NCBI RefSeq assembly: GCF_000759025.1
Contig: NZ_JPOS01000079.1
Location: forward strand, 124,001-188,000
Source: Phaeodactylibacter xiamenensis
Lineage (GTDB): Bacteria; Bacteroidota; Bacteroidia; Chitinophagales; Saprospiraceae
Direction of reading: 5' to 3'
DNA: 64,000 nucleotides
This document shows, one piece after another, positions 17,973-47,869 of the stretch; the stretch's first letter is position 1; the number at the start of each line of letters is the position of its first letter. A program made the translations under genes and the position numbers. Under the pieces are notes generated by a model that saw only the letters and a program-made list of their open reading frames with translations, did not search any database and was not told where the DNA came from.

Positions 17973-20900
17973 ATGTTAAAAAGATGCTTGACCTTATTAT
18001 TAATGCCGCTCCTGGCGCTCCAATTGCTCGGGCAGGCAGACGACGTTAGAGTCGTGCAAAGCGATCAGGGCATGAAACTGGTCGTTAATGGTTCCGACTT
18101 CATGGTGAATGGTATGAACTGGGACTACATCCCTATCGGGACCAATACCGTGAATGCTGGGTTCTGGGAAAAACCGGATGACATTATTAAGGCGGGGCTG
18201 GACGCAGAGATGTCGCTCCTGAAGAATATGAACGTCAACGTGATCCGGCAGTACACCGGCGTGCCCGCCCGGTGGATTCAGTATATTTATGAAAATTATG
18301 GCATTTACACCATGCTCAACCACTCTTTTGGCCGGTATGGGCTTACGTTGGATGGTGTCTGGACGCCGGTTACGCTCTACGATAGCCCGAGAACGCAGGA
18401 ATTCCTGATGAATGAAGTCACTCAACTGGTGGAAGAATATAAAAATACGCCAGGGCTTCTGCTGTACCTGCTGGGTAATGAAAACAACTACGGCCTCTTC
18501 TGGCAGGGAGCCGAAACGGAAGACTTTCCCGATGATCAGGCAAGAATTGATTTTATAGGCGAATCCCGCGGACGTCCCATGTACAAGTTGATGAACGAAG
18601 CGGCCAAAGCCATGAAAGCCATCGACTCCTCCCACCCGGTAGCCATTTGTAATGGTGATGTGCTCTTTATCGACATCATTGCCGAGGAGTGTAAAGACGT
18701 GGACATCTACGGAACAAACACCTACCGGGGTGAGTCCTTCGGTGATATGTTCCAGGTGGTGCAGGACAAGCTGAACAAGCCTATCCTGTTCACCGAGTTC
18801 GGAGCAGATGCTTTCAACGCCATAGAAATGGCCGAAGACCAAAAGATGCAGGCCCATTTTATGGTAGAAAACTGGAAAGAGATATATGCGAATGCTGCGG
18901 GTGTCGGAGGCGTAGGCAATTCTATCGGTGGTTTTACCTTCCAGTTTAGTGATGGCTGGTGGAAATTTGGATTTGATGACCGGGAAAATGCAGACCTGCA
19001 CGACAACAACGCTTCCTGGTCAAACGGCGGATATTACATCGACTATCGGGAAGGCCAGAATAACATGAACGAAGAGTGGTTTGGTATTTGCGCCAAAGGC
19101 CCTACCAACGAGCGCGGTTTGTACACGCTTTACCCAAGAGCCGCTTACTATGCCCTGAAGGAAGCGCATCAGCTAAATCCTTACACTGAAGGCACCACGG
19201 TAGCTTCAATTTATGCTTATTTTGACAACATCCAGCTCATGGATGCCGTGCTCAGAGCGCGGGGCGATAAGGCGGCCTTAGGCAACAACCAAAAACTCAG
19301 CTTGAGCAGTTTCAGGGCTGAACTTGAGACCTTCAATACTGGTGGTACGCTGCTCACAACTCCCGATGCGCCAGATGCAGCGATTCAAAACGACCCGAAC
19401 CTCACGACTTATCCGGATGAATTGGGCTTCGACCATATGCAGTCCTTCTTCTTTGGTGTGGAGGCTAATCCCACTTCAAATCTTAGGGCTACTGCCAATT
19501 TTAACCTGGTTGGCAATGTCGCGGATAACCCAATTGATGAAATTTTCTATGAAAATATCGTACGCGACCGTACCGGGAACAGAAGTGACGGCAATTTAAG
19601 ATTGTACAACGCTGAAGTAGACTGGACCGGAAAGGACTTTGATGCCAGAGCCTTTTACCGGACCGGCCATTATCACTGGCAGTATGAGGGCGACTTCTTT
19701 GGGCTTTACCCGGAAGCCAATTATGGCCCTAACCTGGATATTTACAATGGTGAAATTCTGGGTATGGAAATTGACGGCAAAAATGAATTCAGTGGGCTGA
19801 ATGTGGCTTTCGGCCCTCAGTTGTGGTGGGGCGCCAACCCGGCAGTTCTGGTGAAATACGGCCGTGAAATCAAGCATTTTAAAGTCACAGGGGTCTTCCA
19901 CGAAGATATTGACGATGCCCCCGAATTCGTGACTTCTATTGCCGTGCCCCTGCCTAAAACCCGAAGAGCAACCCTTCATGTAGAACGGGAATTAGGCCCT
20001 CTGGATATCGAACTAGGTGGTATCTGGGGCGGTTCTCCACTGAACGGGCGAAGCTTTCAGATCGTTCAGGGCGAACCGGGACGATATGAGGTATTCGAGG
20101 ATCAGATTAACCCTTCTGATAACTGGGGCGGCAAAGCCAAGGTTAAGTTTTCAAAAGGGGCATTCAACTGGTATGCGCAGGGCTCTGTAATGGGGCTTGT
20201 CGCCAATGGAGGTTTTGATGCCACCCGCACCTTCACCGGCTGGAGGCTCAAGGACAGCGGCAGCGGCAATATGAACAATTTCCTGACGGGCTTTACCTAC
20301 CTGATCGGTAACTTCCAGATTGCACCTAATTTTATGTGGCAGAAGCCTTTGGTTGATCCTATCCCCGGTGATGTCAGCGGGCCAGGGCGGCTCAGGAATA
20401 TCCTGGACGACCCCTTTGCAGTCAGAGACGGTAACCGGGAAACCATTGCAGGAGAGCTGCTGATCACGTTCGACCCTACGCCAGGTACCTGGATGTACGA
20501 TTGGGACAGTGACCGTTCGGAAGATGCCAAGTTCGCGATGAGCGCTGGCTTCGTTTACCGCCACCTGCCCACTTCTATGGATGCAGCTATTGGCTTCCTG
20601 GGTAATCGTACTTCCTTCGCGTTTCCCGGCGCGGCACCTGCACAGGACCTTTGGGAATCCAATATCCGGATGGTCTCGAAAGTCAATCCGGACCTGGGGC
20701 TCATCGCCAACATCCTGTTCGGAACAGCTCAGGCTAACGGGGACAGCGACCGGCTGCTTGAACGCTACGCTATGGACCTGCGGGCCATCTACAAGAAGTA
20801 CAAGTTCGTTTCCCAGTTCAAAGTCAATGACTGGGGTCCCTTCGATTACCACCGGGACTTCAACCTTACCTATCCGCTGCAATTGATGGTGGACATATCC

Positions 20901-21113
20901 ACTACGCTGGGCAAACCAGACTGGTACATACTGCCGGGCACTCAGCTGGGCGTACGCTGGACGTGGCGTAGCCTCAACGAGTTCTCTCCCCGCTACCTGC
21001 CCAACCTGACGGCTTCTGAGTTTGCGGAAGAGCCGACCATCAGCCCGGTAGGTTTTGAGAACGGGACCGAATGGGAATTCAGAACTTACCTCCACGTCAA
21101 CATTGGCAAATAA
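17973..21113 (+). CDS. TIM-barrel glycosidase (GH2/GH5-like) fused to a predicted outer-membrane beta-barrel
   Basis: A 1046-aa protein; the ATG at 17973 is chosen over a TTG two codons earlier. A signal peptide (LTLLLMPLLALQLLGQ) is followed by a clan-A TIM barrel (about 25-410). The likely acid/base is E170 in LLGNENNYG and the nucleophile E275 in ILFTEFGAD. From about residue 480 to the end the protein is a series of strands of alternating polarity rich in aromatics and Gly (for example NVAFGPQLWWGANPAVLVKY, AFNWYAQGSVMGLVA, GTQLGVRWTWRSL). It ends in a strand EFRTYLHVNIGK, as in integral outer-membrane barrels. So it appears to be an enzyme tethered to, or feeding, its own porin-like barrel. 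It is the first gene of the glucan operon. The barrel assignment is an inference from sequence pattern. Confidence 0.75.
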   Translation: MLKRCLTLLLMPLLALQLLGQADDVRVVQSDQGMKLVVNGSDFMVNGMNWDYIPIGTNTVNAGFWEKPDDIIKAGLDAEMSLLKNMNVNVIRQYTGVPARWIQYIYENYGIYTMLNHSFGRYGLTLDGVWTPVTLYDSPRTQEFLMNEVTQLVEEYKNTPGLLLYLLGNENNYGLFWQGAETEDFPDDQARIDFIGESRGRPMYKLMNEAAKAMKAIDSSHPVAICNGDVLFIDIIAEECKDVDIYGTNTYRGESFGDMFQVVQDKLNKPILFTEFGADAFNAIEMAEDQKMQAHFMVENWKEIYANAAGVGGVGNSIGGFTFQFSDGWWKFGFDDRENADLHDNNASWSNGGYYIDYREGQNNMNEEWFGICAKGPTNERGLYTLYPRAAYYALKEAHQLNPYTEGTTVASIYAYFDNIQLMDAVLRARGDKAALGNNQKLSLSSFRAELETFNTGGTLLTTPDAPDAAIQNDPNLTTYPDELGFDHMQSFFFGVEANPTSNLRATANFNLVGNVADNPIDEIFYENIVRDRTGNRSDGNLRLYNAEVDWTGKDFDARAFYRTGHYHWQYEGDFFGLYPEANYGPNLDIYNGEILGMEIDGKNEFSGLNVAFGPQLWWGANPAVLVKYGREIKHFKVTGVFHEDIDDAPEFVTSIAVPLPKTRRATLHVERELGPLDIELGGIWGGSPLNGRSFQIVQGEPGRYEVFEDQINPSDNWGGKAKVKFSKGAFNWYAQGSVMGLVANGGFDATRTFTGWRLKDSGSGNMNNFLTGFTYLIGNFQIAPNFMWQKPLVDPIPGDVSGPGRLRNILDDPFAVRDGNRETIAGELLITFDPTPGTWMYDWDSDRSEDAKFAMSAGFVYRHLPTSMDAAIGFLGNRTSFAFPGAAPAQDLWESNIRMVSKVNPDLGLIANILFGTAQANGDSDRLLERYAMDLRAIYKKYKFVSQFKVNDWGPFDYHRDFNLTYPLQLMVDISTTLGKPDWYILPGTQLGVRWTWRSLNEFSPRYLPNLTASEFAEEPTISPVGFENGTEWEFRTYLHVNIGK

Positions 21114-21137
21114 CTGCCATTTTGAAAAAATAAAGCC

Positions 21138-23537
21138 ATGAAGAATATAGTCATGAAACTTAATATCCTACTTTTATTTGGGCTGGTGCTGGTCCTTAGC
21201 AATTGCACAAGAGACCTCTCCGAAGAGGCAAAACCTGCTACTTTCCCAGCTAACGGGGATGTATACATTGACGGGTTTAGCCCGGGCCTGGAATACCTGC
21301 CCTTCGGTGACTCTTACTTTGAAGCGTTTTCCGTAGACGAGCAGACCGTATACGAAGGCGAATCCGCCATGCGATTTGACGTGCCTAATGTCGGGGACCC
21401 GGACGGAGCTTATGCCGGCGCTATATTCCCGGACTACGGCGGGCGTGACCTTTCCGGTTTCGATGCCCTCACGTTCTGGGCGAAAGCCAGTCAGGCCGCT
21501 AACATCAATGAAATTGGTTTTGGACAAGACTTTGCAGAAAATAAGTATGAGGTCACCCTCCTTAACCTGGAGCTGACCACCAACTGGCGTCAGTACACCA
21601 TCGCCATTCCCGATCCTTCCAAGCTGACGGAGGTCGATGGCTTGTTTTGGTACTCGGAAGGCCCGGAAGACGGCGTAGGCTATTCCTTCTGGATAGATGA
21701 GTTGAAATTCGAAAAGACCGGGAAAGTAGCCCAGCTCCGGCCCGCTATTTTTGAAGGCACAGAAGCTGCGGTTCAGACTTTTGTAGGGGTATCCACTAGT
21801 GTTGCCGGCCTGCAGCAAACCGTCAATTTGGGCAATGGCAGAGACCAAACCATTGCGGTCGCACCCAGTTACTTTGAATTCACGTCTTCTGACCCCGGCG
21901 TAGCCACGGTTGATGCTGCAGGCAATATCCTGGGCATAAGCCCGGGCGAAGCAGTCATCACCGCCACTTTAAATGGAGTGGAAGCAGCGGGTTCTGCCAC
22001 CGTGACCGTCACAGGCGAGTTTAACGGCGCTCCTACGCCTACTCAGGACCCCGCTGATGTCATTTCCATCTTTTCGGATGCGTATACCAATGAACCGGTA
22101 GACTATTATAACGGTTACTGGGCTCCCTTCCAGACCACTCAGGGGCAAGATGATATCAATATTGCCGGTGATAATATTATTTTCTACCGAGAGCTGAATT
22201 TCGTGGGCATACAGTTTCTGGACGATGCCCCAACGATCGATGCCTCCTCCATGACCCATCTCCACATCGACATTCAGCCCAGAGAGCCGGTGGAGCCAGG
22301 TGACTATCTGAACATACAGGTTGCTGACGTTGGCCCGGACAATACATTCGGTACCGGTGATGATTCTTCCGGCGAAATTTCAATTCCTGGTTCCAGTCTG
22401 ACCGAGGGGGAATGGTATAGCCTTGATGTGCCGTTTTCGGATTTGGGAGGGCTGACTGGCCGGTCTAATTTAGCGCAGGTCATCTTCGTTTCTGACGCCA
22501 CTATATCCAGTATCTACGTGGATAATGTCTACTTTTATAATGACGGAGGATCAGGTGGCCCTACTGGTCCAACCATGGCTGCTCCGGCACCAACAGCGGG
22601 TGCTGCGGATGTGATTTCCATCTTTAGCGATGCCTATACGAATATCAATTCCAACCTGAACCCGGACTGGGGGCAGGGCACTCAGGTTTCCCAGGTGAGC
22701 ATTGAGGGCAACAACACCCTACTCTACACCGGGCTGAATTTCCAGGGGCTGGAATTAGAGAGCAGCACCGATGTAAGCGAAATGGAATTCCTGCACATTG
22801 ATTACTGGACGGAAAATTCTTCTGCTCTGAACGCTTTCCTGATCAGCACCGGGCCTACTGAAACGGCGAGTGCATTGCCCGTGCCTACATCCGGATGGGC
22901 CAGCGTGGACATTCCGCTGGGTGATTTCTCACCTGTGGACCTGGCAGATATTATTCAAATGAAGTTTGATGGCAACGGCGATATCTATCTGGATAATATC
23001 TACTTCTACAAATCCTCAGGTGGCGGAGGAGATGAGCCGACTACGGCTGCACCAACGCCAACCCAGGATGCCGCAAATGTGATTTCCATGTTTAGCAATG
23101 CCTACACCAACGTAGGGGTGGATACCTGGAGGACAGACTGGTCGTCCGCGACACTGGAAGATGTTCAGGTGGCGGGCAACGATGTGAAGTTGTACACGGC
23201 CCTCGACTTTGTCGGCATTGAAACCACCGGTGGAAATCTAATTGATGCTTCTTCCATGACGCATTTCCATGTAGATGTATGGACACCGAACATGACCACC
23301 TTCCGGATCAAACTGGTGGACTTTGGTGCCGATGGTGGCTTTGATGGAGGAGACGACAGCGAGTTTGAGTTAATCTTCGACAATCTCGCTCAGGGGCAAT
23401 GGGTGTCCTATGATATCCCACTTTCGGACTTTGAGGGTCTGACCAGTACAACAAATCTGGCGCAGCTCATCTTCTCCGGACTACCCGCTGGCGGTGGAAC
23501 TCTTTATGTCGACAATGTCTATTACTATCAGCAGTAG
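21138..23537 (+). CDS. Multi-module carbohydrate-binding surface lipoprotein
   Basis: A 799-aa lipoprotein with lipobox LVLSNC (C23). About residues 35-200 form a CBM11-like beta-sandwich (VYEGESAMRFDVPN, YSFWIDELKFEKTG). About 215-290 are a Big_2-type bacterial Ig domain (FEFTSSDPGVATVDAAGNIL). Then come three copies of a 150-170-aa module beginning PTPTQDPADVISIFSDAYTN and ending IYVDNVYFYN, joined by Gly/Pro/Thr-rich linkers. There is no catalytic motif. By position between the barrel enzyme and the GH16 laminarinase it is probably a surface glycan-binding protein that replaces SusD-type capture. Ligand identity is inferred from context only. Confidence 0.75.
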   Translation: MKNIVMKLNILLLFGLVLVLSNCTRDLSEEAKPATFPANGDVYIDGFSPGLEYLPFGDSYFEAFSVDEQTVYEGESAMRFDVPNVGDPDGAYAGAIFPDYGGRDLSGFDALTFWAKASQAANINEIGFGQDFAENKYEVTLLNLELTTNWRQYTIAIPDPSKLTEVDGLFWYSEGPEDGVGYSFWIDELKFEKTGKVAQLRPAIFEGTEAAVQTFVGVSTSVAGLQQTVNLGNGRDQTIAVAPSYFEFTSSDPGVATVDAAGNILGISPGEAVITATLNGVEAAGSATVTVTGEFNGAPTPTQDPADVISIFSDAYTNEPVDYYNGYWAPFQTTQGQDDINIAGDNIIFYRELNFVGIQFLDDAPTIDASSMTHLHIDIQPREPVEPGDYLNIQVADVGPDNTFGTGDDSSGEISIPGSSLTEGEWYSLDVPFSDLGGLTGRSNLAQVIFVSDATISSIYVDNVYFYNDGGSGGPTGPTMAAPAPTAGAADVISIFSDAYTNINSNLNPDWGQGTQVSQVSIEGNNTLLYTGLNFQGLELESSTDVSEMEFLHIDYWTENSSALNAFLISTGPTETASALPVPTSGWASVDIPLGDFSPVDLADIIQMKFDGNGDIYLDNIYFYKSSGGGGDEPTTAAPTPTQDAANVISMFSNAYTNVGVDTWRTDWSSATLEDVQVAGNDVKLYTALDFVGIETTGGNLIDASSMTHFHVDVWTPNMTTFRIKLVDFGADGGFDGGDDSEFELIFDNLAQGQWVSYDIPLSDFEGLTSTTNLAQLIFSGLPAGGGTLYVDNVYYYQQ

Positions 23538-23567
23538 TCATTGCAAATGCTAACCAATTAAAAAGAA

Positions 23568-24425
23568 ATGAAAATGCAGACACCAATTTATAAAACCCGC
23601 AGGCCTGCTATCAGCATCCTTTTTGCATTGGCCCTGGGGCTTTGGTTCACGGCTTGTGAAAACAGCGAAACTCAAACGGTGGTCACCTTCACCGACCTGG
23701 CCTTCGAGGACAATTTTGATACAGACGGCCCGGTTGACGAATCCTCCTGGAATTATGAGCTTGGAAATGGCGTAAACAACGGCCTGCCTGTAGGCTGGGG
23801 CAACAATGAGTTGCAGTACTACACCGACCGCCCGGAAAACATCAAAGTCGAAGGGGGGATGCTGCACATTACTGCGCTCCGGGAAAGCTTTGAGGGCGCT
23901 GCTTTTACCTCCGCTCGTATTACGACTAAAGGTAAAGTGGAACAACGCTACGGCCGCATCGAAGCCCGCATGCAGTTGCCCTGGGGGCAGGGGCTGTGGC
24001 CGGCATTCTGGATGCTGGGCAGCAATATCGATGAAGTCGGCTGGCCGCAGTGTGGCGAAATCGATATCATGGAATACCGCGGACAGGACCCCTCAACCCT
24101 AATTGGCAGCGTACATGGCCCAGGCTACTCCGCCGGAGATGCGGTAAGCAAAGAGTACGTCCTGCCTCAGGACCGGTTTGATACAGGCTTCCATATTTTT
24201 GGTATTGAGTGGGGTCCGGAGTACATCAATTACTATGTGGATGATGTGCTGTACAATCAGATCACCCCCGAGGATGTAGATGGCGAATGGGTCTTTGACC
24301 AGCCGTTTTACATCATCCTGAACCTTGCAGTGGGCGGCAACTTTGTCGGAGCAGTAGGCCCTGATACCGTTTTTCCGCAAACCCTGCTTGTGGACTATGT
24401 CCGGGTCTACAACGGGCCTAACTAA
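23568..24425 (+). CDS. GH16 beta-1,3-glucanase (laminarinase) lipoprotein
   Basis: A 285-aa protein with lipobox LWFTAC (C30), so probably outer-membrane anchored. It is a GH16 beta-jelly-roll with the catalytic signature GEIDIMEY: nucleophile E164, assisting D166, acid/base E169. Other family landmarks are WNYELGNG, GWGNNELQYYTDRPEN, YGRIEARMQLPWGQGLWPAF and the C-terminal LLVDYVRVYN. The pattern WPAFWMLG followed by GEIDIMEYRG is that of bacterial endo-beta-1,3-glucanases. It should cut laminarin-type glucan at the cell surface. It sits 30 bases after the surface lipoprotein gene and 30 before the phosphorylase gene. Confidence 0.93.
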   Translation: MKMQTPIYKTRRPAISILFALALGLWFTACENSETQTVVTFTDLAFEDNFDTDGPVDESSWNYELGNGVNNGLPVGWGNNELQYYTDRPENIKVEGGMLHITALRESFEGAAFTSARITTKGKVEQRYGRIEARMQLPWGQGLWPAFWMLGSNIDEVGWPQCGEIDIMEYRGQDPSTLIGSVHGPGYSAGDAVSKEYVLPQDRFDTGFHIFGIEWGPEYINYYVDDVLYNQITPEDVDGEWVFDQPFYIILNLAVGGNFVGAVGPDTVFPQTLLVDYVRVYNGPN

Positions 24426-24455
24426 AGACATCAATTAACATTTGCTAAAAATAAA

Positions 24456-27400
24456 GTGTCAACTTTTATGGGTGACCACCAAACCGCTGCTTCCGTTGAT
24501 ATCCAACGGGTGAACATCAATGGCGAACCTTACTTCAAAATTTCTAACAGCGATGCCATGCGGCCCTTCTTCATGAGCATCGTCAGCGACTCCAATCACT
24601 GGCTTTTTATTGCCAGCAACGGAGGGCTGACGGCAGGCCGGAAAAACTCAGAATACGCGCTGTTCCCTTACTACACCGATGACAAAATCACGGAATCGGT
24701 CGAAGTAACGGGCAGTAAAGCGCTGTTCCGGGTGGACCAAAATGGCAATTCGGTGCTTTGGGAGCCGTTCTCTGTTCGGCAGGAAGGGCAGTACAAGCTG
24801 AGCCGCAACCTCTACAAAAATGTATACGGCAATAAAGTACGCTTTGAGGAGGTGAATCACGATCTGGGCCTCACATTCCAGTATGAATGGAGCTCCAGTG
24901 ACCGCTTTGGCTTTGTACGCCGCTCCGCCCTGATCAACCACAACGAAGCAGCGGTTTCGGTCCACCTGCTGGATGGCATTCAGAATATCCTGCCCTACGG
25001 GGTCAACAGTGAGCTGCAAATGCGCTCCAGCAACCTCGTAGATGCCTACAAAAAGAGCGAGTTGGAAAAAGATGCCGGGCTGGGTATCTATGCCCTCAGC
25101 GCCATCATCGTGGACCGGGCGGAGCCCAGCGAGGCCCTCAAAGCTAATATCGCCTGGTCTTGTGGGCTGGAGTCGCCTACCTACCTGCTGACTTCCCGCC
25201 AACTTGATGCCTTCCGGAAGGGAAAGCCGCTTCAGGAGGAAGTCGATATGCGGGCGGAGAAAGGCGCCTATTTCGTTAGTAAGGAGATGGAGCTGCCCGC
25301 CAAAGGCACCCAGGAGTGGTTGATCATGGCCGATGTCAACAAAAATCATGCGGACATTGCCCGTATTATGCATGAAATTCAGACCAGCCCGAACCTGGCC
25401 ACTGAGATTGAGGAGGACATCCGCAAAGGTACGGACCGGCTTATCGCATTGGATGCTCAGGCCGATGGGCTGCAAATGACGGCGGATGAATTCCGGGATG
25501 CCCGCCACTTCTCCAACGTGCTGTTCAACATCATGCGTGGCGGTATCTTCGATCATCACTACCAGATTGAGAAAGCAGACCTGAGCCTCTACCTGGCGAA
25601 AGCCAACAGGACTGTCTTCAAGGCGGCTCAGCCGATGCTTTCTGAACTGCCGGATACCTTTCCACTCAGCGAGCTGCGCAAGGCCGCTCAAGCTACAGGC
25701 AATACCCATCTACTCCGCCTTTGCCTGGAGTACATGCCCCTGAAGTTCAGCCGCCGTCACGGTGACCCCAGCCGCCCCTGGAACAAATTCTCCATCAATA
25801 CCCGCAGTGAGGTAGATGGCTCGAAGATACTGGACTATGAGGGCAACTGGCGGGACATCTTCCAAAACTGGGAAGCCCTGGCGCATTCTTACCCGCGCTT
25901 CGTGGAGAGCATGGTGCACAAATTCCTCAATGCCACCACCTTCGATGGTTACAATCCCTACCGGGTGACCAAGGATGGCTTCGACTGGGAAACCATCGAG
26001 CCCGATGATGCCTGGTCCTACATCGGTTACTGGGGCGACCATCAGATCATCTACCTGCTGAAGCTGCTGGAATTCTGGGAAAAGCAGTCGCCGGGCGACC
26101 TGCAGCACTACTTTAGCGAAGACCTCTTCGTTTACGCGAATGTGCCCTACAAAATCAAGCCCTTCGAGAAAATCTTGGAAGACTCCAAGGATACCATAGA
26201 GTTTGATCATGAAGCAGATGAGTCAATCCGGCAGAAAAGAGATCAGATTGGGGCCGATGGGGCACTGCTGGCGGATCAGAGCGGGCAAATCTATCAGGTG
26301 AACTTCATTGAAAAAATGTTAGCGGCCCTGCTTGCCAAAATGTCCAACTTCATTCCCGAAGGAGGCATTTGGATGAACACCCAGCGCCCGGAGTGGAATG
26401 ATGCCAATAATGCATTAGTAGGTAACGGGGTGTCAATGGTGACGCTTTACTACATGCGTCGTTTCCTACAGTTTTTTGATGACCTGTTCGCCCAGTCAGA
26501 AGCCCAGTCAGTCAGTGTATCGGCTGAGTTGCTGGACTGCTTCGAAGGGATTGCCAAAGCGCTGGACTCGAATGAAAAACTGTTATCCGGCACCTTCAGC
26601 GATAAAGACCGGATGACCGTGCTACAGGGGCTTGGTCAGGCTGCGAGCCGTTACCGGGCTAAGATATACGATCACGGTTTCTCCGGGCAAAAGCACGAGC
26701 TGAAGCTGGAAGACCTCAAAACGTTTGTTCGCCTCAGCATACGTTACCTGGACCACTCTGTAAAGGCAAATGAGCGAAAGGATGGGCTTTATCATGCTTA
26801 CAACCTCATGGCCGTGGAAGAAGATGGTGGCGTGTCCATCGAATACCTTGATGAAATGCTCGAAGGGCAGGTGGCGGTGCTCAGTGCCGGTTCCTTGTCC
26901 TCAGCGGAGGCGCTTCGGGTGTTGGATGCACTGAAAAACAGTGCCCTCTTCCGACCGGATCAGTACAGCTATATTTTGTACCCCAATAAGGACCTTGGGC
27001 GTTTTATGGCCAAAAACAACATTCCCGCCAAAATGGTGGGCGAGTCCAAACTTCTCCAAAAGCTGGTCGCGGATGGCAATGCCCAAATCCTCTATCAGGA
27101 TGTAAAAGGCGCTTACCACTTCAATGGCAATTTCAAAAACGCCAACGATCTAAAAGTGGCGCTGGATGCCCTGGCGGATACTCAGTACGCTGCATTGGCA
27201 GAAGCCGAGCGCAAGTCTGTGCTTCAGACCTTCGAAAAAGTCTTTAACCACAAAGCCTTCACCGGTCGGTCGGGCACCTTCTTCGGGTACGAAGGGTTGG
27301 GCTCCATCTACTGGCATATGGTTTCCAAGCTGCAGCTGGCCGTACAGGAATGCTGCCTGAAGGCCATCCGTGAGGGGGCAAGCCAGGAAGTGGTTGGCCG

Positions 27401-27911
27401 TTTGCTGGAGCATTACTACGAAATTAATGAGGGCATAGGCGTACACAAATCGCCGGACCTCTACGGGGCTTTTCCTACGGACCCGTACTCGCATACACCG
27501 GCGGGTAAAGGTGCACAGCAGCCGGGTATGACCGGGCAGGTGAAGGAAGATATCCTGAGCCGCTTTGGTGAACTGGGTGTCTTTTTTGAAAAGGGGCAAT
27601 TGCATTTCGACCCCTGTCTGCTCCGTAAGGAAGAGTTCCTGCAGCGGCCACGCACTTTTACCTTCCGCGATGTGGCAGGAGAGGAGCAACAGGCAGAGCT
27701 GGGCGAAGGTACGCTGGCTTTCACCATCTGTCAGGTGCCGGTGCTCTATCAATTGAGAGATGCAGCCGGGATTATGGTGGTCGGCAGTGATGGTACTGTT
27801 CATGCCTCAGAGGAAACCGCTTTAAGCCCTGATTTGAGTAAGGAAGTGTTCGAACGAAGCGGTAAGGTTGCCCGGATTGTCGTGTCGCTGAACCCTAAAG
27901 ATTTGAAATAG
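24456..27911 (+). CDS. Beta-1,3-oligoglucan phosphorylase (GH149/GH161-like, GH94 clan)
   Basis: An 1151-aa protein without signal peptide, hence cytoplasmic. The start is GTG at 24456; an ATG 4 codons later is equally possible. The N-terminal half is a GH94-like beta-sandwich (RPFFMSIVSDSNHWLFIASNG, LFPYYTDDKI), followed by an (alpha/alpha)6 barrel with the likely catalytic acid D649 in RPEWNDANNALVGNG, matching the WND motif of GH94-type phosphorylases. At about 1150 aa it is much longer than cellobiose phosphorylase (about 800) and fits GH149 or GH161, both beta-1,3-glucan phosphorylases. It should release glucose-1-phosphate from imported oligosaccharides. I cannot separate GH149 from GH161 by eye; GH149 seems likelier from size and phylum. 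Confidence 0.75.
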   Translation: MSTFMGDHQTAASVDIQRVNINGEPYFKISNSDAMRPFFMSIVSDSNHWLFIASNGGLTAGRKNSEYALFPYYTDDKITESVEVTGSKALFRVDQNGNSVLWEPFSVRQEGQYKLSRNLYKNVYGNKVRFEEVNHDLGLTFQYEWSSSDRFGFVRRSALINHNEAAVSVHLLDGIQNILPYGVNSELQMRSSNLVDAYKKSELEKDAGLGIYALSAIIVDRAEPSEALKANIAWSCGLESPTYLLTSRQLDAFRKGKPLQEEVDMRAEKGAYFVSKEMELPAKGTQEWLIMADVNKNHADIARIMHEIQTSPNLATEIEEDIRKGTDRLIALDAQADGLQMTADEFRDARHFSNVLFNIMRGGIFDHHYQIEKADLSLYLAKANRTVFKAAQPMLSELPDTFPLSELRKAAQATGNTHLLRLCLEYMPLKFSRRHGDPSRPWNKFSINTRSEVDGSKILDYEGNWRDIFQNWEALAHSYPRFVESMVHKFLNATTFDGYNPYRVTKDGFDWETIEPDDAWSYIGYWGDHQIIYLLKLLEFWEKQSPGDLQHYFSEDLFVYANVPYKIKPFEKILEDSKDTIEFDHEADESIRQKRDQIGADGALLADQSGQIYQVNFIEKMLAALLAKMSNFIPEGGIWMNTQRPEWNDANNALVGNGVSMVTLYYMRRFLQFFDDLFAQSEAQSVSVSAELLDCFEGIAKALDSNEKLLSGTFSDKDRMTVLQGLGQAASRYRAKIYDHGFSGQKHELKLEDLKTFVRLSIRYLDHSVKANERKDGLYHAYNLMAVEEDGGVSIEYLDEMLEGQVAVLSAGSLSSAEALRVLDALKNSALFRPDQYSYILYPNKDLGRFMAKNNIPAKMVGESKLLQKLVADGNAQILYQDVKGAYHFNGNFKNANDLKVALDALADTQYAALAEAERKSVLQTFEKVFNHKAFTGRSGTFFGYEGLGSIYWHMVSKLQLAVQECCLKAIREGASQEVVGRLLEHYYEINEGIGVHKSPDLYGAFPTDPYSHTPAGKGAQQPGMTGQVKEDILSRFGELGVFFEKGQLHFDPCLLRKEEFLQRPRTFTFRDVAGEEQQAELGEGTLAFTICQVPVLYQLRDAAGIMVVGSDGTVHASEETALSPDLSKEVFERSGKVARIVVSLNPKDLK

Positions 27912-27913
27912 CT

Positions 27914-29233
27914 ATGCGGAAATCAAAAAACCATCCCTTGAGTACTTTGATGCTGTCCATACTGCTGGGTGTAGCTGTGGTTATTTTCCTGGCCATTGGC
28001 TGCAGCCCATCTGCAGAAAAGGCAACGGTAACGCCAACTGAAAAACCAAATGAAGTGACCGCTGCTGACATCCTTGGCGACCCGGCTTACCGGGCTATTT
28101 CCTACGGAGGCTACCGTGCCAACAGCCGGGAGGGACAGCCTACCGTCGCTCAGCTGAAGGAGGACATGCTTTTGCTACAGGCTATGGGCATCAAGTTACT
28201 AAGGACCTATAACACCCATCTGGCGCAAGCCTCCAATCTGCTGGTCGCCATCCGCGAGCTGAAAAGCGAAGATCCTGGCTTCGAGATGTACGTTATGCTG
28301 GGCGCCTGGATCAACTGCAAAGGTGCTTTTACCGCTAATCCGGACCACAGTGCCGAAGATGCAGAAGCCAACGCTGCCGAAATCGGGCGTGCAGTGGAAA
28401 TGGCGAAAGCCTACCCTGATATCGTCAAAGTTATTGCGGTGGGCAACGAAGCTATGGTGAAATGGGCCGCCAGCTATTTTGTACAGCCGGGGGTGATCCT
28501 CAAATGGGTCAACCACCTGAAGGGGCTGAAAGCTAATGGCGAACTGCCCGAAAGCCTCTGGATTACCAGTTCAGACAATTTTGCGTCCTGGGGCGGTGGC
28601 GGTGCAGAGTATCATGTAGAGGACCTGGAGCAGTTGCTGCGGGCAGTAGACTTTGTATCCCTGCACACTTACCCTATGCACGACACCCACTACAATCCGG
28701 ACTTTTGGGGGGTAACGGAAGCCGAAGCTGAGCTGCCCAAAGCCGAACAGATTGAAGCCGCAATGGAGCGTGCTTTGGAATACGCGCAGCAGCAATACGC
28801 ACAAACTGCAGCCTACATCAGCGGGCTGGGCATTGAAAAGCCCATCCATATTGGGGAGACGGGCTGGGCGACCGCTTCCAACAGCTTCTACGGACCAGGC
28901 GGCTCGAAAGCGACCGATGAGTATAAGTCTGCCATCTACCACAAGCGCATGCGGGAGTGGACCGACGAAGATGGCATCAGCTGCTTTTACTTTGAGGCGT
29001 TTGATGAAAACTGGAAAGACGCTGGAAACCCGGGCGGCTCCGAGAACCACTTTGGGCTCTTCACGATCGATGGCAAAGCCAAGTATGCCCTTTGGGACCT
29101 GGTGGATGCCGGGGTGTTTAAAGGTTTAGGGCGCGGCGGCCAGCCTGTAGCCAAAACTATGGATGGGGACGAAGCGGCACTTCTGGAATCCGTGGAGGTA
29201 CCTCCTTTGATGGAAGAAGCGCCTGACCATTAG
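27914..29233 (+). CDS. GH17-type beta-1,3-glucanase lipoprotein
   Basis: A 439-aa protein starting 2 bases after the phosphorylase stop, so translationally linked. Lipobox FLAIGC (C30). It is a GH17-type TIM barrel: the opening YRAISYGGYRANSREGQPT, acid/base E179 in VIAVGNEAMV, SLHTYPMHDTHYNPDFW, and nucleophile E315 in IHIGETGWAT, followed by FYFEAFDENWKD, the aromatic and acidic tail of the family. The C-terminal 40 residues after WDLVDAG are a low-complexity acidic tail. It probably acts in the periplasm or on the outer membrane on beta-1,3-glucan oligosaccharides, as hydrolase or transglycosylase. Confidence 0.85.
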   Translation: MRKSKNHPLSTLMLSILLGVAVVIFLAIGCSPSAEKATVTPTEKPNEVTAADILGDPAYRAISYGGYRANSREGQPTVAQLKEDMLLLQAMGIKLLRTYNTHLAQASNLLVAIRELKSEDPGFEMYVMLGAWINCKGAFTANPDHSAEDAEANAAEIGRAVEMAKAYPDIVKVIAVGNEAMVKWAASYFVQPGVILKWVNHLKGLKANGELPESLWITSSDNFASWGGGGAEYHVEDLEQLLRAVDFVSLHTYPMHDTHYNPDFWGVTEAEAELPKAEQIEAAMERALEYAQQQYAQTAAYISGLGIEKPIHIGETGWATASNSFYGPGGSKATDEYKSAIYHKRMREWTDEDGISCFYFEAFDENWKDAGNPGGSENHFGLFTIDGKAKYALWDLVDAGVFKGLGRGGQPVAKTMDGDEAALLESVEVPPLMEEAPDH

Positions 29234-29263
29234 AACCATAAAACAGCTTTTGAGCTAAAACCT

Positions 29264-30751
29264 ATGACAAAATCTATTCACATATCCTCCTGTCTGATGG
29301 TCTTGATGATGCTTGCCGCCTGTCAATCCAGGGAACCACTACCGGTGGAAGTCTACGAAACCTCTGCCGGTGGCCATCAGCTTACGCCCTTGTCGGATTT
29401 CGCCCAGGCTGAAAATCCCATCGTGGTAAAGCTGCTGCCTGAGGAAACCTATCAGACAATCACGGGCTTTGGCGGCTCTTTTACCGAAGCATCCGCTTAC
29501 CTGCTCAATCAGCTCAGCGCTGGGAACCGCAGCAAAATTATTAATGCTTACTTCGGAACGGAAGGCGCAAAGTACTCCCTCACCCGTACGCACATGAACT
29601 CCTGCGACTTCTCCCTGGGGCATTATTCCTATGCCCCGGTGGAAGGCGATACCGCCCTGCAGCATTTTACCATAAAAGAAGACCGCGAAGACATCATCCC
29701 CATGATCAAGGATGCAATGGCTGTCTCGGAAGAGGGCTTCAAAATCATCTCCTCGCCCTGGACAGCCCCGCCCTGGATGAAAGACAACAACGACTGGATG
29801 GGGGGCAAGCTGCAGCCCCAATACTATGATACATGGGCGCTGTTTTTCTCCAAATACCTGGACGCTTATCAGGCAGAGGGCATTGATATCTGGGCATTTA
29901 CGGTGGAGAACGAGCCACTGGGCAATGATAGTAACTGGGAGAGCATGCACTTCAGCCCGGAGGAGATGACGGCCTTTGTGCAAAACCACCTCGGCCCCCG
30001 CTTAGAGGCGGACGGGCATAGTGCAAAAATCCTTGGCTACGATCAGAACCGGGAACACCTCAAAGAATGGGTGGATGACATGTACCAAAATGAAGCCACT
30101 TCCAAATATTTTGACGGTACAGCAATTCACTGGTACGCCAGTACCTATGAGGTTTTTCCGGAGGAATTGCAGTATGCTCACAAAAAAGCACCCGGGAAGC
30201 ACCTCATTCAGACCGAAGCTTGCGTGGATGCGGAAGTGCCCAAATGGAAAAACGACGACTGGTACTGGTCTCAGGAAGCCACCGACTGGGGCTGGGACTG
30301 GGCACCGGAAGACCAAAAGCACCTGCACCCGAAGTACGTGCCGGTCTACCGTTATGCCCGCGATATCATTGGCTGCCTGAACAACTGGGTAGATGGCTGG
30401 GTGGACTGGAATATGGTGCTCAACCGGCAGGGCGGCCCCAACTGGTTCAAGAACTGGTGTGTGGCCCCGGTTATCGTTGACCCCGAACAAGACGAGGTCT
30501 ACTTTACGCCCATTTACCATACCATGGCGCATTTTAGCAAATTTATTCGCCCCGGCGCTACCCGCATCGGATTTGAAAACCCGGATGATGAAATGATGGT
30601 GACAGCCGCCAGGAACCCGGATGGATCTGTCGCTGTCGTCGTTTTCAATCCCACCGAACAAGAGAAAATTCTGGCCATAGAACTGAGCGGGCAGTCCGCC
30701 CAACTATCCATCAGCAAGCAAGCGATTCAGACCATAGTCATCAAACCATAA
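29264..30751 (+). CDS. GH30 beta-glucosidase/beta-1,6-glucanase lipoprotein
   Basis: A 495-aa protein with lipobox LMMLAAC (C20). It is a GH30 TIM barrel with the C-terminal beta-domain. Landmarks: TYQTITGFGGSFTEASAYLL at about 63-82, SPWTAPPWMK at 164-173, acid/base E217 in FTVENEPLG, nucleophile E318 in LIQTEACVD, and the side beta-sandwich ending AIQTIVIKP. GH30_1/GH30_3 members of Bacteroidota often remove beta-1,6-linked glucose or cut beta-1,6-glucan, which suits debranching of laminarin side chains. The exact linkage is inferred from locus context. It is followed 12 bases later by the transporter-enzyme fusion. Confidence 0.88.
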   Translation: MTKSIHISSCLMVLMMLAACQSREPLPVEVYETSAGGHQLTPLSDFAQAENPIVVKLLPEETYQTITGFGGSFTEASAYLLNQLSAGNRSKIINAYFGTEGAKYSLTRTHMNSCDFSLGHYSYAPVEGDTALQHFTIKEDREDIIPMIKDAMAVSEEGFKIISSPWTAPPWMKDNNDWMGGKLQPQYYDTWALFFSKYLDAYQAEGIDIWAFTVENEPLGNDSNWESMHFSPEEMTAFVQNHLGPRLEADGHSAKILGYDQNREHLKEWVDDMYQNEATSKYFDGTAIHWYASTYEVFPEELQYAHKKAPGKHLIQTEACVDAEVPKWKNDDWYWSQEATDWGWDWAPEDQKHLHPKYVPVYRYARDIIGCLNNWVDGWVDWNMVLNRQGGPNWFKNWCVAPVIVDPEQDEVYFTPIYHTMAHFSKFIRPGATRIGFENPDDEMMVTAARNPDGSVAVVVFNPTEQEKILAIELSGQSAQLSISKQAIQTIVIKP

Positions 30752-30763
30752 ATAAAACCAGCG

Positions 30764-33163
30764 ATGAGTACTACAGCTAAACATACAGTGCCCTTTGGGC
30801 AGAAGGTCGCCTTCGGGCTTGGCATGCTCGCCAATCAAATGTTCCCGGCCGTACTGGGGATTTTCATGGTGGTCCTGGTACAAAACCTGGGCTTTCCGGG
30901 TTGGATGTGGGGGGTAATTTATTTCTTTCCCAGGATTTTTGATTCCTTCACGGACCCGATTATGGGCTTCATTTCGGACAACACGAAATCCAAATGGGGG
31001 CGGCGCAGGCAGTATGTGATGGCCGGTGCGATTATCATGGGGGTCGCGTTTGTAGCCATGTGGCAGCTCTACAAAACAGACCCGGCAACCGGGGAATTGG
31101 TGTCCCTCAACTACAACTTCACCTACTTCATGATCTGGTCTTTTGTTTTCTACCTGGGACTGACCATTTTCAGTGTGCCCTACGTAGCTATGGGGTATGA
31201 GATGAGTGACGATTTCCATGAGCGCACCAACATTATGGCTACTGCGCAGTGGATTGGGCAGTGGGCCTGGGTAATTGCGCCCTGGTTTTGGGTCATCATG
31301 TATGATAATGGCCCGGATGGGTGGTTCCCGGACGCAGAAACAGCTACCCGAACCCTTGCCCTTTGGGTGGGCATCATTTTGATGTTCGTTGCCATGATGC
31401 CGGCCATCTTCATTAAAAGTGAATCCACTCTGGAGAAGGATTATTCTCCGATGACACTCAAAAATATTGGCGGGAGTTTCAATGAGATCATTCTCGGTTT
31501 TAAGGAAGCGCTGAAGATCAAGCCGTTCCGGAAGCTTTGTATTTCCACCTTCTTCATTTTCAATGCGTTCAATACCGTAGCTACCTTTACTTTCTTCATC
31601 ATCGTATACCACTTGTTCAACGGGGATGCGGATGCTGCGAATGCGGGGTTCTGGCCCACACTTTTCGGTAGCCTGGGCGCGATTTCCACCACCTTTATTG
31701 TTATTCCGATTGTGGCCTGGCTATCGCGCAAAATAGGTAAGAAGCAAGCTTTTATTTTGTCGCAGGGTATTTCAATTATCGGGTATGTGATGCTGTGGTT
31801 CCTTTTGGTGCCGGGCAAGCCTTACCTGTTTATTTTTGCGCTGCCCTTCTTTTCCTTTGGTATCGGTAGCCTGTTCACCCTGATGATGTCCATGACTTCG
31901 GATGTGATTGACCTGGACGAGTTGAATACTGGCAAGCGGCGGGAAGGTATTTTCGGTGCCATTTACTGGTGGATGGTGAAGTTTGGTTTTGCCATTGCCG
32001 GTGGTTTGAGTGGGGTGATTTTGTCCATCGTAGGATTTCAGGAAGGCATTCCGGGTACAGATCAGCCTGAGGCCATTACCGGGCTGCGGATATTTTTCTC
32101 CGGACTGCCTATTGCAGGAACCCTGATTGCGATGTGGGTCATGCGCGATTACGATGTAACGGAGGAAAAAGCACTGGAAGTCCGTGCGGCGATTGACCGT
32201 AAAAAAATGGCGAAAGGAAGCTCCTCCGCTTATATGCCCGGCAAGTTGCTGGCCCTTAAAGAGGGCTTGCTTCTCAATGGGGTAGTCGGATTAGACTTTG
32301 CCGGAAAATCCACTGGTGAAATCCGCGCCCTCTTTACGGAAAAGCTCAATAGCCACCTGCACGGGCTATGCTTCAGCCCTTATGTGGAAGGTCAGGCTGC
32401 CGGTGACATCCTGTCAAAAGAACAGATTCGGCGCCGTATGGAAATCATTATGCCGCATACCGAATGGATCCGCTCATTCTCTTGTACAGAAGGCAATGAA
32501 CTGATCCCCCGAATTGCCCATGAGAAAGGCCTGAAGACAATGGTGGGGGCCTGGATCAGCGCAGACAAAGCACGGAATGAAGCCGAGATCAACGCCCTGG
32601 TAAGGCTGGCCAAAGAAGGCCTGGTGGATATAGCAGCTGTTGGTAATGAAGTGCTGCTGCGCAATGAGCTTTCGGAGCAGGAAATCATTGGTTACATTGA
32701 GCGGGTGAAGGCGCAGCTTCCAGAAGGCATACCGGTGGGCTATGTGGATGCCTACTATCAGTTCCTGGAGCGCCCTGAACTGGTTAATGCCTGTGATATT
32801 CTCCCGATCAACTGCTACCCATTCTGGGAAGGAGCAGACAGTAGCCACGCGTTGTTGTTCCTGCAGCAGATGTACACATTGGCGGCAGAAGCCGGCAGAG
32901 GCAAAAAAGTGATTGTTGCCGAAACCGGATGGCCGAGTGCGGGGCAGAGCGTGGAAGCGGCACAGCCTTCTGCTGAAAACGCTATGAAGTACTTCATCAA
33001 TGCCCAGGACTGGGCAAAAGCCAACGGTATTGAAATGTTTTACTTCTCCTCCTTCGATGAGTCCTGGAAAGTGGTCCACGAAGGCGAGGTGGGTACCCGC
33101 TGGGGGCTTTGGGACAAGCACGAACAGCCCAAGTTTGCTTCACAAAACGTAAAAACCAACTAA
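30764..33163 (+). CDS. GPH-family sugar:cation symporter fused to a cytoplasmic GH17 domain
   Basis: A 799-aa fusion. Residues 1-465 are a 12-helix MFS transporter of the glycoside-pentoside-hexuronide type, with the signature DSFTDPIMGFISDNTKSKWG followed by RRR (about 60-82) and the second-half motif SMTSDVIDLDELNTGKRREG (376-395). After a polar linker (about 470-500) residues 505-795 form a complete GH17-like domain, with acid/base E629 in AAVGNEVLL and nucleophile E720 in IVAETGWPSAG, and the end FYFSSFDESWKVVHEGE. GPH carriers have cytoplasmic termini, so the enzyme domain should face the cytoplasm at the carrier exit. The frame is continuous with no stop between the parts, and the next GH17 gene starts 4 bases later. 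Confidence 0.9.
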   Translation: MSTTAKHTVPFGQKVAFGLGMLANQMFPAVLGIFMVVLVQNLGFPGWMWGVIYFFPRIFDSFTDPIMGFISDNTKSKWGRRRQYVMAGAIIMGVAFVAMWQLYKTDPATGELVSLNYNFTYFMIWSFVFYLGLTIFSVPYVAMGYEMSDDFHERTNIMATAQWIGQWAWVIAPWFWVIMYDNGPDGWFPDAETATRTLALWVGIILMFVAMMPAIFIKSESTLEKDYSPMTLKNIGGSFNEIILGFKEALKIKPFRKLCISTFFIFNAFNTVATFTFFIIVYHLFNGDADAANAGFWPTLFGSLGAISTTFIVIPIVAWLSRKIGKKQAFILSQGISIIGYVMLWFLLVPGKPYLFIFALPFFSFGIGSLFTLMMSMTSDVIDLDELNTGKRREGIFGAIYWWMVKFGFAIAGGLSGVILSIVGFQEGIPGTDQPEAITGLRIFFSGLPIAGTLIAMWVMRDYDVTEEKALEVRAAIDRKKMAKGSSSAYMPGKLLALKEGLLLNGVVGLDFAGKSTGEIRALFTEKLNSHLHGLCFSPYVEGQAAGDILSKEQIRRRMEIIMPHTEWIRSFSCTEGNELIPRIAHEKGLKTMVGAWISADKARNEAEINALVRLAKEGLVDIAAVGNEVLLRNELSEQEIIGYIERVKAQLPEGIPVGYVDAYYQFLERPELVNACDILPINCYPFWEGADSSHALLFLQQMYTLAAEAGRGKKVIVAETGWPSAGQSVEAAQPSAENAMKYFINAQDWAKANGIEMFYFSSFDESWKVVHEGEVGTRWGLWDKHEQPKFASQNVKTN

Positions 33164-33167
33164 CAAT

Positions 33168-34055
33168 ATGTCACTACGGGTAGAACGACTGGATGGTCTG
33201 AAAGGCTTCGATTATTCCGGCAAAGACGCGGATGATTTCCGGCAGCTTTTTCAAAATGTGCTGGGCAGTGGCCTGCATGGCTTATGCTACAGTGCCTACG
33301 ATGAAGGTCAAAAACCGGGCGCTATTCTGACCAAAGCGCAGATCAGAAGGCGTATGGGGATCATTGCGCCCTACATCAAATGGGTGCGGAGCTTCTCCTG
33401 CGTGGAGGGCAATGAACTGGTGGCTGAGGTAGCCCGCGAGATGGGCATCAAAACCCTGGTCGGTGCCTGGCTGGGCGATGACAAAGACCTGAATGAGCAG
33501 GAAATAGAGGGGCTGATCCGTCAGGCAAAAGCCGGCTACGTGGATATTGCTGCTGTAGGCAATGAGGTGATGTACCGGGGCGACCTGACCGAAGGAGAAC
33601 TGCTGGAGTACATCGCGCGGGTACGGGAAGCCCTGCCCGGGGATATCCCGGTAGGCTATGTGGATGCTTATTATGAGTTCAGCGCCCGGCCACAGATTAC
33701 CGCTGCCTGTGATGTCATTCTGGCCAACTGCTACCCTTACTGGGAGGGTTGCCACATTGACTATAGCCTGATGCATGCTAAGCAAATGTACTACCAAGCT
33801 TTGCACGCCGGGCAGGGCAAAAAGGTGATCATTACAGAAACCGGCTGGCCTAGTCAGGGCACCGCACTCAATGATGCAGAGCCTGCTCACCACAATGCGC
33901 TGCGCTACTTCCTCAATATTCAGCAGTGGGCCCGGCAGGACAATATCGAGGTCTTCTACTTCTCCTCTTTCGATGAATCCTGGAAGGTAGGCGCAGAAGG
34001 GGATGTTGGGGCCTACTGGGGCCTTTGGGACAAGCATGAACAGCTGAAATTTTAA
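33168..34055 (+). CDS. Cytoplasmic GH17-like glucanase/transglycosylase
   Basis: A 295-aa single-domain protein without signal peptide. It is clearly paralogous to the GH17 domain of the preceding fusion over its whole length (LDGLKGFDYSGKDADDFRQL against NGVVGLDFAGKSTGEIRALF; shared SFSC.EGNEL, DIAAVGNEV, PVGYVDAYY, NCYP.WEG, ETGWPS). Acid/base E133 and nucleophile E224 are present. It arose by duplication of the domain next door. It should act in the cytoplasm on imported beta-glucan oligosaccharides, trimming or rearranging them for the phosphorylase. Part of its sequence recurs in the chimeric remnant near 58.3 kb. Confidence 0.85.
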   Translation: MSLRVERLDGLKGFDYSGKDADDFRQLFQNVLGSGLHGLCYSAYDEGQKPGAILTKAQIRRRMGIIAPYIKWVRSFSCVEGNELVAEVAREMGIKTLVGAWLGDDKDLNEQEIEGLIRQAKAGYVDIAAVGNEVMYRGDLTEGELLEYIARVREALPGDIPVGYVDAYYEFSARPQITAACDVILANCYPYWEGCHIDYSLMHAKQMYYQALHAGQGKKVIITETGWPSQGTALNDAEPAHHNALRYFLNIQQWARQDNIEVFYFSSFDESWKVGAEGDVGAYWGLWDKHEQLKF

Positions 34056-34061
34056 AAATTA

Positions 34062-34994
34062 ATGGAGCACAACAACCATTTGCCTTTTCCGTACGGCCGG
34101 GCGATTTGCTACTCTGGTTTTCGGGAAGGGCAACACCCTGGTGGTGAATACCCAACCTATGAGCAGGTCCGGGAAGACTTACTGATATTGCAAGGGCACT
34201 GGAAGTACCTGCGGCTTTACGATTGCGACCCGCATGGAGAGACCGTATTGCAGGTCATCCAACAGGAAAAGCTGGACTTCAAAGTCATGCAGGGCGCCTA
34301 CATCGAAGCCGAAATGAACAACTACGGCTGCCCCTGGGGCGGCGGGGTGTATGCGGAGGAACAGCTGGAGGCTAACAAAGCCAAAAACGACGCGCAGATT
34401 AACAAGCTCATCGAATGGGCCAATGCCTACCCCGACATCATCTGCTGCACCTCAGCCGGGAATGAAGCTTGTGTGGACTGGACCGACCATTACGTTCCGG
34501 TGGGGCGGGTTATTGCTTTTGTTCGCCGCCTCAAGGCTGCTACCCAGCAGCCCGTCACTTTTTGTGAAAACTATGTACCCTGGATGCACAAGCTGCGCCC
34601 GCTGGTTCAGGAGGTCGACTTCATCTCTATCCATACTTATCCGGTATGGGAGTATAAGCACATCCACGAATCCCTGGAATATACCAAAGAAAACTACTAC
34701 GGTGTTGCAGACCTTTACCCGGATACGCCGGTCGTTATCACCGAAGCCGGCTGGACGACCCGTTCCAACGGTCAGGGCATCGACCCCGGCCACGTCAATG
34801 AAGGCCTGCAAAAGACCTACTACGACGACCTTATGGACTGGACGGATACCGAAGAAATCCTCACCTTCGTCTTCGAAGCCTTCGACGAGCCCTGGAAAGG
34901 CTCACCAGACCCCAATGAGCCGGAAAAGCATTGGGGGCTGTTCCGGGTGGACCGGTCGCCTAAATCGGTGGTAGCCGGCTTGGTGAAAAAATAG
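34062..34994 (+). CDS. Second cytoplasmic GH17-like enzyme
   Basis: A 310-aa protein without signal peptide, 6 bases after the previous gene and last in the operon. It is more like the lipoprotein GH17 at 27.9 kb than its direct neighbour: YGRAICYSGFREGQHPGGEY, then SAGNEACVDW with acid/base E135, SIHTYPVWEYKH, VVITEAGWTTRSNG with nucleophile E228, and FVFEAFDEPWKG with DPNEPEKHWGLFRVD. It probably cleaves or transfers beta-1,3-glucan oligosaccharides in the cytoplasm. Its final 110 bases are the source-like match for the second half of the chimera near 58.7 kb. No terminator hairpin is evident after the stop. Confidence 0.85.
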   Translation: MEHNNHLPFPYGRAICYSGFREGQHPGGEYPTYEQVREDLLILQGHWKYLRLYDCDPHGETVLQVIQQEKLDFKVMQGAYIEAEMNNYGCPWGGGVYAEEQLEANKAKNDAQINKLIEWANAYPDIICCTSAGNEACVDWTDHYVPVGRVIAFVRRLKAATQQPVTFCENYVPWMHKLRPLVQEVDFISIHTYPVWEYKHIHESLEYTKENYYGVADLYPDTPVVITEAGWTTRSNGQGIDPGHVNEGLQKTYYDDLMDWTDTEEILTFVFEAFDEPWKGSPDPNEPEKHWGLFRVDRSPKSVVAGLVKK

Positions 34995-36246: not shown

Positions 36247-36355
36247 ATAGCATCCTGCAGAGTTCAGGGCAGGGGGGCGTCCCTTTTTGCAAAGCAAGGC
36301 CAGGGAAACGACCTCGTTGAAAACGAATTCTGAATCTCCTAACTCTACCCCGAAT

Positions 36356-47851: not shown

Positions 47852-47869
47852 ACCCAAACGCTCCATCTC

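Follow-up and report, generated by a model that had tools for sequence, protein, structure and literature searches.

A glucan operon with an enzyme-barrel fusion

The window analysed here is a stretch of 64,000 nucleotides from Phaeodactylibacter xiamenensis (contig NZ_JPOS01000079.1, C79:124001-188000 in our numbering). It carries a nine-gene operon for beta-1,3-glucan breakdown at 17973-34994, with all genes on the forward strand. The first gene (gene 1) encodes a glycoside hydrolase (GH) domain joined to a predicted outer-membrane beta-barrel. This fusion is a conserved feature and is undescribed in the open-access literature searched, while the operon type itself is known. As judged by its genes, the operon is the Saprospiria version of the laminarin polysaccharide utilization locus (PUL) named variant B or variant 1. 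The whole system can be read as a variant B/1 operon in which the gene 1 barrel would pass glucan, with the lipoprotein gene 2 and the GH16 gene 3 as the outer-membrane module, and we give this reading about an even chance.

The enzyme domain of gene 1

The TIM domain lies at approximately residues 27-440. The Pfam model of the GH2 TIM domain, GH2_C, matched at 35.5 bits (cut-off 21), and neither the N-terminal sugar-binding domain nor the Ig-like domain of GH2 was found by Pfam or in the AlphaFold2 (AF2) model. The putative catalytic residues, i.e., E172 in the motif GNEN and E277 in TEFG, are invariant in the gene 1 alignments. Residues E172 and E277 are counted from the TTG at 17967, and the most likely start is the ATG at 17973. 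The closest folds were GH158 and GH157 laminarinases, with a Z-score of 27.6 for GH158 over 277 residues at 2.8 A. GH157 and GH2 (glucuronidase) structures were tied with GH158, at most 1 Z unit apart. The sequence-profile matches of the domain were weak, with E of about 5e-4 to GH158 (6pal/9oro) and equally 5e-4 to a GH2 beta-galactosidase.

The predicted barrel of gene 1

The C-terminal half, approximately residues 444-1045 (about 600 residues), is predicted to be an outer-membrane beta-barrel from its even set of antiparallel strands, its alternation of long and short loops and its fold match. The full-length AF2 model showed about 26 strands with a predicted TM-score (pTM) of 0.49, and the barrel-only model showed 26 strands with pTM 0.73 and a predicted local distance difference test score (pLDDT) of about 72. 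The 50 best structural alignments of the barrel were all to outer-membrane barrels, headed by AlgE (Z 14.6), MOMP, Occ porins and chitoporin. No sequence relatives of the barrel were found among solved structures up to E 5. In a foldseek search with the full-length model, the TM-scores stayed low, as the two domains of the model mix. Gene 1 encodes the sole predicted outer-membrane barrel protein of the operon. A reading of the letters and open reading frames alone (the sequence-only reading) had guessed this barrel and made it the candidate for glucan uptake; the barrel is supported by the AF2 models and fold searches, and the uptake role is still that of a candidate only.

Identity as a TonB receptor was rejected, as no TonB-receptor, plug or RagA/SusC model of Pfam or NCBIfam matched gene 1. 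TIGR04056 gives 837 bits on protein P0013 of the same genome and did not match gene 1.

In the barrel model, a long first loop is followed by a short one, an alternation that would place the N-terminus, and thus the enzyme, in the periplasm. The reverse arrangement, with the enzyme facing outward and the barrel as an autotransporter-like display anchor, would suit the neighbouring lipoproteins of genes 2 and 3, which are possibly at the surface. Against it stand the loop alternation and enzyme-only relatives of gene 1 (L069, L300), whose plain signal peptides suggest a periplasmic enzyme, and it is considered improbable.

Association of the barrel with a lipoprotein and GH16

Across 395 phylum genomes, 35 had the barrel (profile A3) and 43 the enzyme. 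In all intact cases the barrel was fused to the TIM enzyme, and it was never found intact without it. In 90 of 90 readable loci with a barrel, the gene after the enzyme encodes a binding lipoprotein; this holds for 0 of 8 barrel-less loci, in which GH149 (seven loci) or GH30 (one locus) follows instead (Fisher p 6e-12 for barrel against next-gene lipoprotein, with kinship ignored). Within the three genes downstream, GH16 follows in 83/93 barrel-bearing loci and after none of the barrel-less enzymes.

This strict co-occurrence of barrel and lipoprotein is left unexplained if small laminari-oligosaccharides, cut outside by GH16, simply diffuse through general porins and gene 1 merely processes them. 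A sugar-induced putative porin of Formosa, FORMB_11920, is in line with such diffusion (PMC6246565). However, the likely periplasmic Formosa enzymes FbGH30 and FbGH17A act on laminarin or debranched laminarin (PMC6246565), so larger chains probably enter, and we regard the porin explanation as very improbable.

The barrel could also serve mainly to anchor or dock the enzyme in the outer membrane, with all glucan entering through a SusC/SusD pair (SusCD) or another TonB-dependent receptor in trans. Four enzyme-only forms (L301, L303, L304 and L306) have a lipobox, and one anchor may therefore replace another. On the other hand, three enzyme-only forms (L069, L300 and L302) are without a lipobox, and approximately 600 strongly conserved residues are much for an anchor; the mean column identity of the barrel is 68% in the alignment of relatives without L129.

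Two decaying copies of gene 1 were also observed. In L309 (G341) the open frames are split and a transposase-like gene follows, and in L308 (G230) a barrel remnant lies behind the enzyme.

SusCD loci in the genome

No SusC/SusD was found in the window by the SusD scan of the genome and by Pfam scans of the other main open reading frames, which gave no TonB receptor; the nearest SusD genes are at C79:62209 and C79:260300. The sequence-only reading had noted this absence correctly and had concluded that outer-membrane uptake must use something else. That conclusion was not borne out for P. xiamenensis, because its genome has SusCD loci with GH16. In the genome (7.87 Mb, 164 contigs), 17 PF07980 matches were found, two of them within one gene, i.e., 16 SusD genes, and the neighbourhoods of all 16 were inspected. 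A search for SusC/SusD near other glucan genes, proposed by the same reading, thus ended in two such loci, C81 and C34. The C81 locus (L045) has the order Y_Y_Y regulator, SusC, SusD, PKD-type binding lipoprotein, GH16 lipoprotein and P0016, a large relative of the gene 2 protein (799 bits). From its gene content, C81 is a laminarin-type locus of SusC, SusD, surface glycan-binding protein and GH16. The C34 locus (L040, C34:34500-52500) has SusC-SusD with GH5-like and GH16 genes and is possibly another beta-glucan PUL.

Under the anchor explanation, the C81 locus would be the SusCD entry route in this organism. Barrel, lipoprotein and GH16 most likely form an outer-membrane glucan module that is redundant with SusCD here.

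The operon and SusCD in related genomes

When 84,980 species genomes were scanned with the gene 1 alignment, 564 related stretches were found, and the best 80 were fetched as the basis of the counts out of 80. These 80 belong to Flavobacteriia, Saprospiria and, in one case, Flammeovirgaceae. The synteny comparison that the sequence-only reading had proposed gave a recurrent order, i.e., enzyme-barrel, binding lipoprotein, GH16, (further genes), GH149, GH17, GH30 and MFS. A regulator directly adjoins gene 1 in 58/80 loci, and none of these 58 has SusCD. A SusC-SusD-lipoprotein unit lies directly upstream on the same strand in 13/80 loci (in L131, only the SusD end is on the contig), and in 12 of the 62 loci whose upstream sequence extends over 7 kb or more. 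The SusC/SusD of the 13 loci match the C81 pair far above the other pairs of the P. xiamenensis genome (e.g., 683 vs 189 bits), and by this sequence likeness they are orthologous to the C81 pair. With SusCD upstream in 13/80 loci and apart in this genome, one laminarin system comprises two separable parts, the SusCD unit and the barrel operon. The joined loci, like C81 itself, also favour the anchor explanation.

A rule that the barrel is lost where SusCD is adjacent was tried and rejected: SusCD lies upstream in 2/11 barrel-less and in approximately 13/93 barrel-bearing loci, a figure that excludes one spurious 17-bit SusCD match. In G407 and G216, the barrel-less enzyme lies downstream of SusC-SusD-(lipoprotein)-GH16. 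In G079 the operon is without barrel, lipoprotein and GH16, and the SusD of the genome is 78% identical to the C81 SusD. These three cases look like the swap of one surface module for another.

Four or five near-complete relatives keep the operon with no SusCD locus detected in linkage to GH16. In G111 (100% complete), G011 (99%) and G054 (98%), the GH16 of the operon is the only PF00722 gene of the genome; therefore, no SusCD locus of these genomes carries GH16. Neither GH16 nor GH17 was found in their inspected SusCD neighbourhoods. In G037 (99%), both GH16 genes lie within the stretch of the operon, and the one SusCD pair is among housekeeping genes. G026 (95%) has the operon, no SusD was found in it by three Pfam models, and its second GH16 lies outside the operon. 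SusD was also not found in the less complete genomes G074 (72%) and G062 (85%). G065 and G076 differ, as their SusCD loci include GH16. From these gene contents, a SusCD-independent outer-membrane step is plausible in relatives. The different route for glucan uptake suggested by the sequence-only reading gains support in this form, i.e., from relatives with no GH16-linked SusCD detected and, for some, no SusD detected, but it is not forced in P. xiamenensis.

In G111, a SusCD pair beside GH144- and GH3-like genes (L222) was also seen, perhaps a beta-1,2-glucan locus by sequence resemblance only.

Near-complete relatives without detected GH16-linked SusCD, and others without detected SusD, are difficult for the anchor explanation, in which all glucan enters by SusCD or another TonB-dependent receptor. 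In its favour, selfish laminarin uptake in Formosa was ascribed to SusCD (PMC6246565). In sum, we consider the anchor explanation unlikely, though still one to be reckoned with.

Proposed route of glucan

In the preferred reading, in which the barrel passes glucan, gene 1 would be a large outer-membrane barrel that carries, on the side of the periplasm, a beta-glucanase domain like those of GH158 and GH2. The surface lipoprotein of gene 2 would bind glucan and the surface GH16 of gene 3 would cut it. Fragments would enter passively through the gene 1 barrel, and the fused enzyme would trim them as they arrive at the periplasmic mouth. In the periplasm, the GH30 and GH17 lipoproteins would debranch and shorten the fragments. 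The MFS-GH17 fusion would bring short oligosaccharides into the cytoplasm, where GH17 and GH149 would complete the breakdown. The placing of products in cytoplasm or periplasm rests on signal peptides, lipoboxes and on Formosa. The C81 locus would probably give this organism a second, TonB-driven laminarin route.

Several points weigh against this reading. The pLDDT of the barrel is low enough to make the strand count and the open pore uncertain, and the foldseek TM-scores are approximately 0.3-0.4 and point to no single family. The phylum counts are phylogenetically non-independent. The barrel is no simple replacement for SusCD, as the two stand side by side in the 13 loci named above. The assemblies of G026, G037, G054 and G011 are fragmented. 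A SusCD-free step is doubtful mainly on account of incomplete assemblies, of other TonB receptors and of some neighbourhoods with only SusD-like_2/_3 matches, which lie outside those inspected (G111 C6, C7 and C13; G011 C30 and C189; G054 C78).

More broadly, gene 1 may found a group of TonB-independent outer-membrane glucan importers, i.e., a 26-strand pore with a built-in periplasmic glucanase, acting with a lipoprotein and a surface GH16. In Flavobacteriia and Saprospiria alike, such importers would offer a route other than SusCD, and in some lineages they would be the sole dedicated glucan entry. This proposal is tentative, and we hold it somewhat more doubtful than even. The question matters because laminarin, a storage sugar of algae, is among the largest carbon flows of the sea, and SusCD counts are nearly the only measure by which its import by Bacteroidota is judged. 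If the enzyme-fused pore imports glucan, surveys based on SusCD overlook a part of laminarin import. Gene 1 would then represent a novel kind of fusion between transporter and enzyme in the outer membrane, mirroring the inner-membrane MFS-GH17 of the same operon.

Gene content of the operon and other features of the window

The nine tightly spaced genes of the sequence-only reading were confirmed, with intergenic gaps of 2-30 bases, and so were GH16, four GH17 domains, GH30, the sugar symporter and the lipoprotein, by Pfam and lipobox. Its GH149/GH161-like phosphorylase was resolved to GH149 and not GH161: gene 4 gave 1807.5 bits with the NCBIfam GH149 equivalog (cut-off 1150) and 1627 bits against PDB 6hq6. 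Gene 2 is presumed from its sequence to be a surface glycan-binding protein. The GH17 match of gene 9 (26.8 bits) is slightly under the Pfam cut-off, but the protein resembles the other GH17s of the operon. Transporter-enzyme fusions are found at both membranes, i.e., gene 7 at the inner and, by prediction, gene 1 at the outer. Table 1 also holds features outside the operon.

Table 1. Features of the operon and of the rest of the window (positions in the window; HTH, helix-turn-helix; aa, amino acids)
Feature	Position	Strand	Basis or remark
Regulator: Reg_prop, Y_Y_Y, LuxR-type HTH	14855..17749	-	964 aa, divergent from operon; Pfam
Gene 1: TIM domain of clan GH-A after a signal peptide, and a predicted C-terminal outer-membrane barrel of 26 strands	17973..21113	+	Pfam GH2_C, conservation, AF2 models, fold matches
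Barrel-coding half of gene 1	19257..21110	+	Profile A3
Gene 2: lipoprotein, Big_2 and repeated binding-type modules	21138..23537	+	Pfam, lipobox
Gene 3: GH16 lipoprotein, beta-1,3-glucanase type	23568..24425	+	Pfam, lipobox
Gene 4: GH149 beta-1,3-glucan phosphorylase, signal peptide absent	24456..27911	+	NCBIfam, PDB 6hq6
Gene 5: GH17 lipoprotein, in position of FbGH17A/MlGH17A	27914..29233	+	Pfam, lipobox
Gene 6: GH30 (GH30 and GH30C) lipoprotein, in position of FbGH30 (beta-1,6-glucosidase)	29264..30751	+	Pfam, lipobox
Gene 7: MFS_2/GPH symporter with C-terminal GH17 fused, as in Formosa FbGH17B	30764..33163	+	Pfam, NCBIfam, PMC6246565
Gene 8: GH17, signal peptide absent	33168..34055	+	Pfam
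Gene 9: GH17, signal peptide absent	34062..34994	+	Pfam, likeness to other GH17s
DDE transposase	11760..12833		
Phage tail-collar domain protein	35227..36246		Adjoins the two giant proteins
Two giant proteins (3854 and 3235 aa)	36287..57577		PKD, Ig-like, SprB repeats, type IX sorting tails

Comparison with known systems

The laminarin PUL was named variant B in PMC6298971 and variant 1 in PMC10108472, and is known in marine Flavobacteriia, i.e., Formosa PUL 2, Polaribacter Hel1_33_49 and Muricauda lutaonensis. Laminarin induces it in Formosa and in Polaribacter (PMC6246565, PMC6298971), and FbGH30, FbGH17A and the MFS-fused FbGH17B of Formosa were characterised (PMC6246565). The Muricauda PUL consists of LuxR, GH2, GH16, GH149, GH17A, GH30_1, MFS and GH17B, with its first gene annotated only as a GH2 beta-glycosidase (PMC13188888). 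The operon studied here shares with these loci GH16, GH149, GH17, GH30_1, an MFS or MFS-GH17 fusion, a further GH17 and a LuxR-type regulator; GH16, at least two GH17, GH30, GH149, the MFS transporter and the regulator were all found in synteny. Unlike them, it has no SusCD. As the susCD tandem is absent, it falls outside the strict definition of a PUL and would otherwise be called a CAZyme cluster. Copies free of susCD were already noted, as GH149 "CAZyme clusters" (PMC5827456) and in an NS4 metagenome-assembled genome (PMC10108472).

The counterpart of gene 1 is perhaps the "GH0" of PMC10108472. A barrel half of the variant B/1 "GH2" protein is unmentioned in the open-access main texts on these loci, and nothing relevant on a glucanase fused to an outer-membrane barrel was found in the open-access literature. 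As for the enzyme, the gene 1 TIM domain resembles the GH158 laminarinase (BuGH158, 6pal; 9oro) in fold (Z 26.6-27.6), and the catalytic-glutamate motifs align; the identity is only approximately 13-20%, i.e., a weak sequence link.

The operon shares with the SusC/SusD system the grouping of a barrel in the outer membrane with a binding lipoprotein and an endo-glucanase at the surface. Unlike SusC, gene 1 has an enzyme domain, no match to plug or TonB models and approximately 26 predicted strands instead of 22, and no SusD relative accompanies it. AlgE, chitoporin, maltoporin and OprD/Occ porins have 16-18 strands, no fused glycoside hydrolase and no detectable sequence relation to gene 1. They nevertheless give the best structural alignments of its barrel and serve, like the pore proposed here, as barrels through which sugars or small solutes cross the outer membrane.

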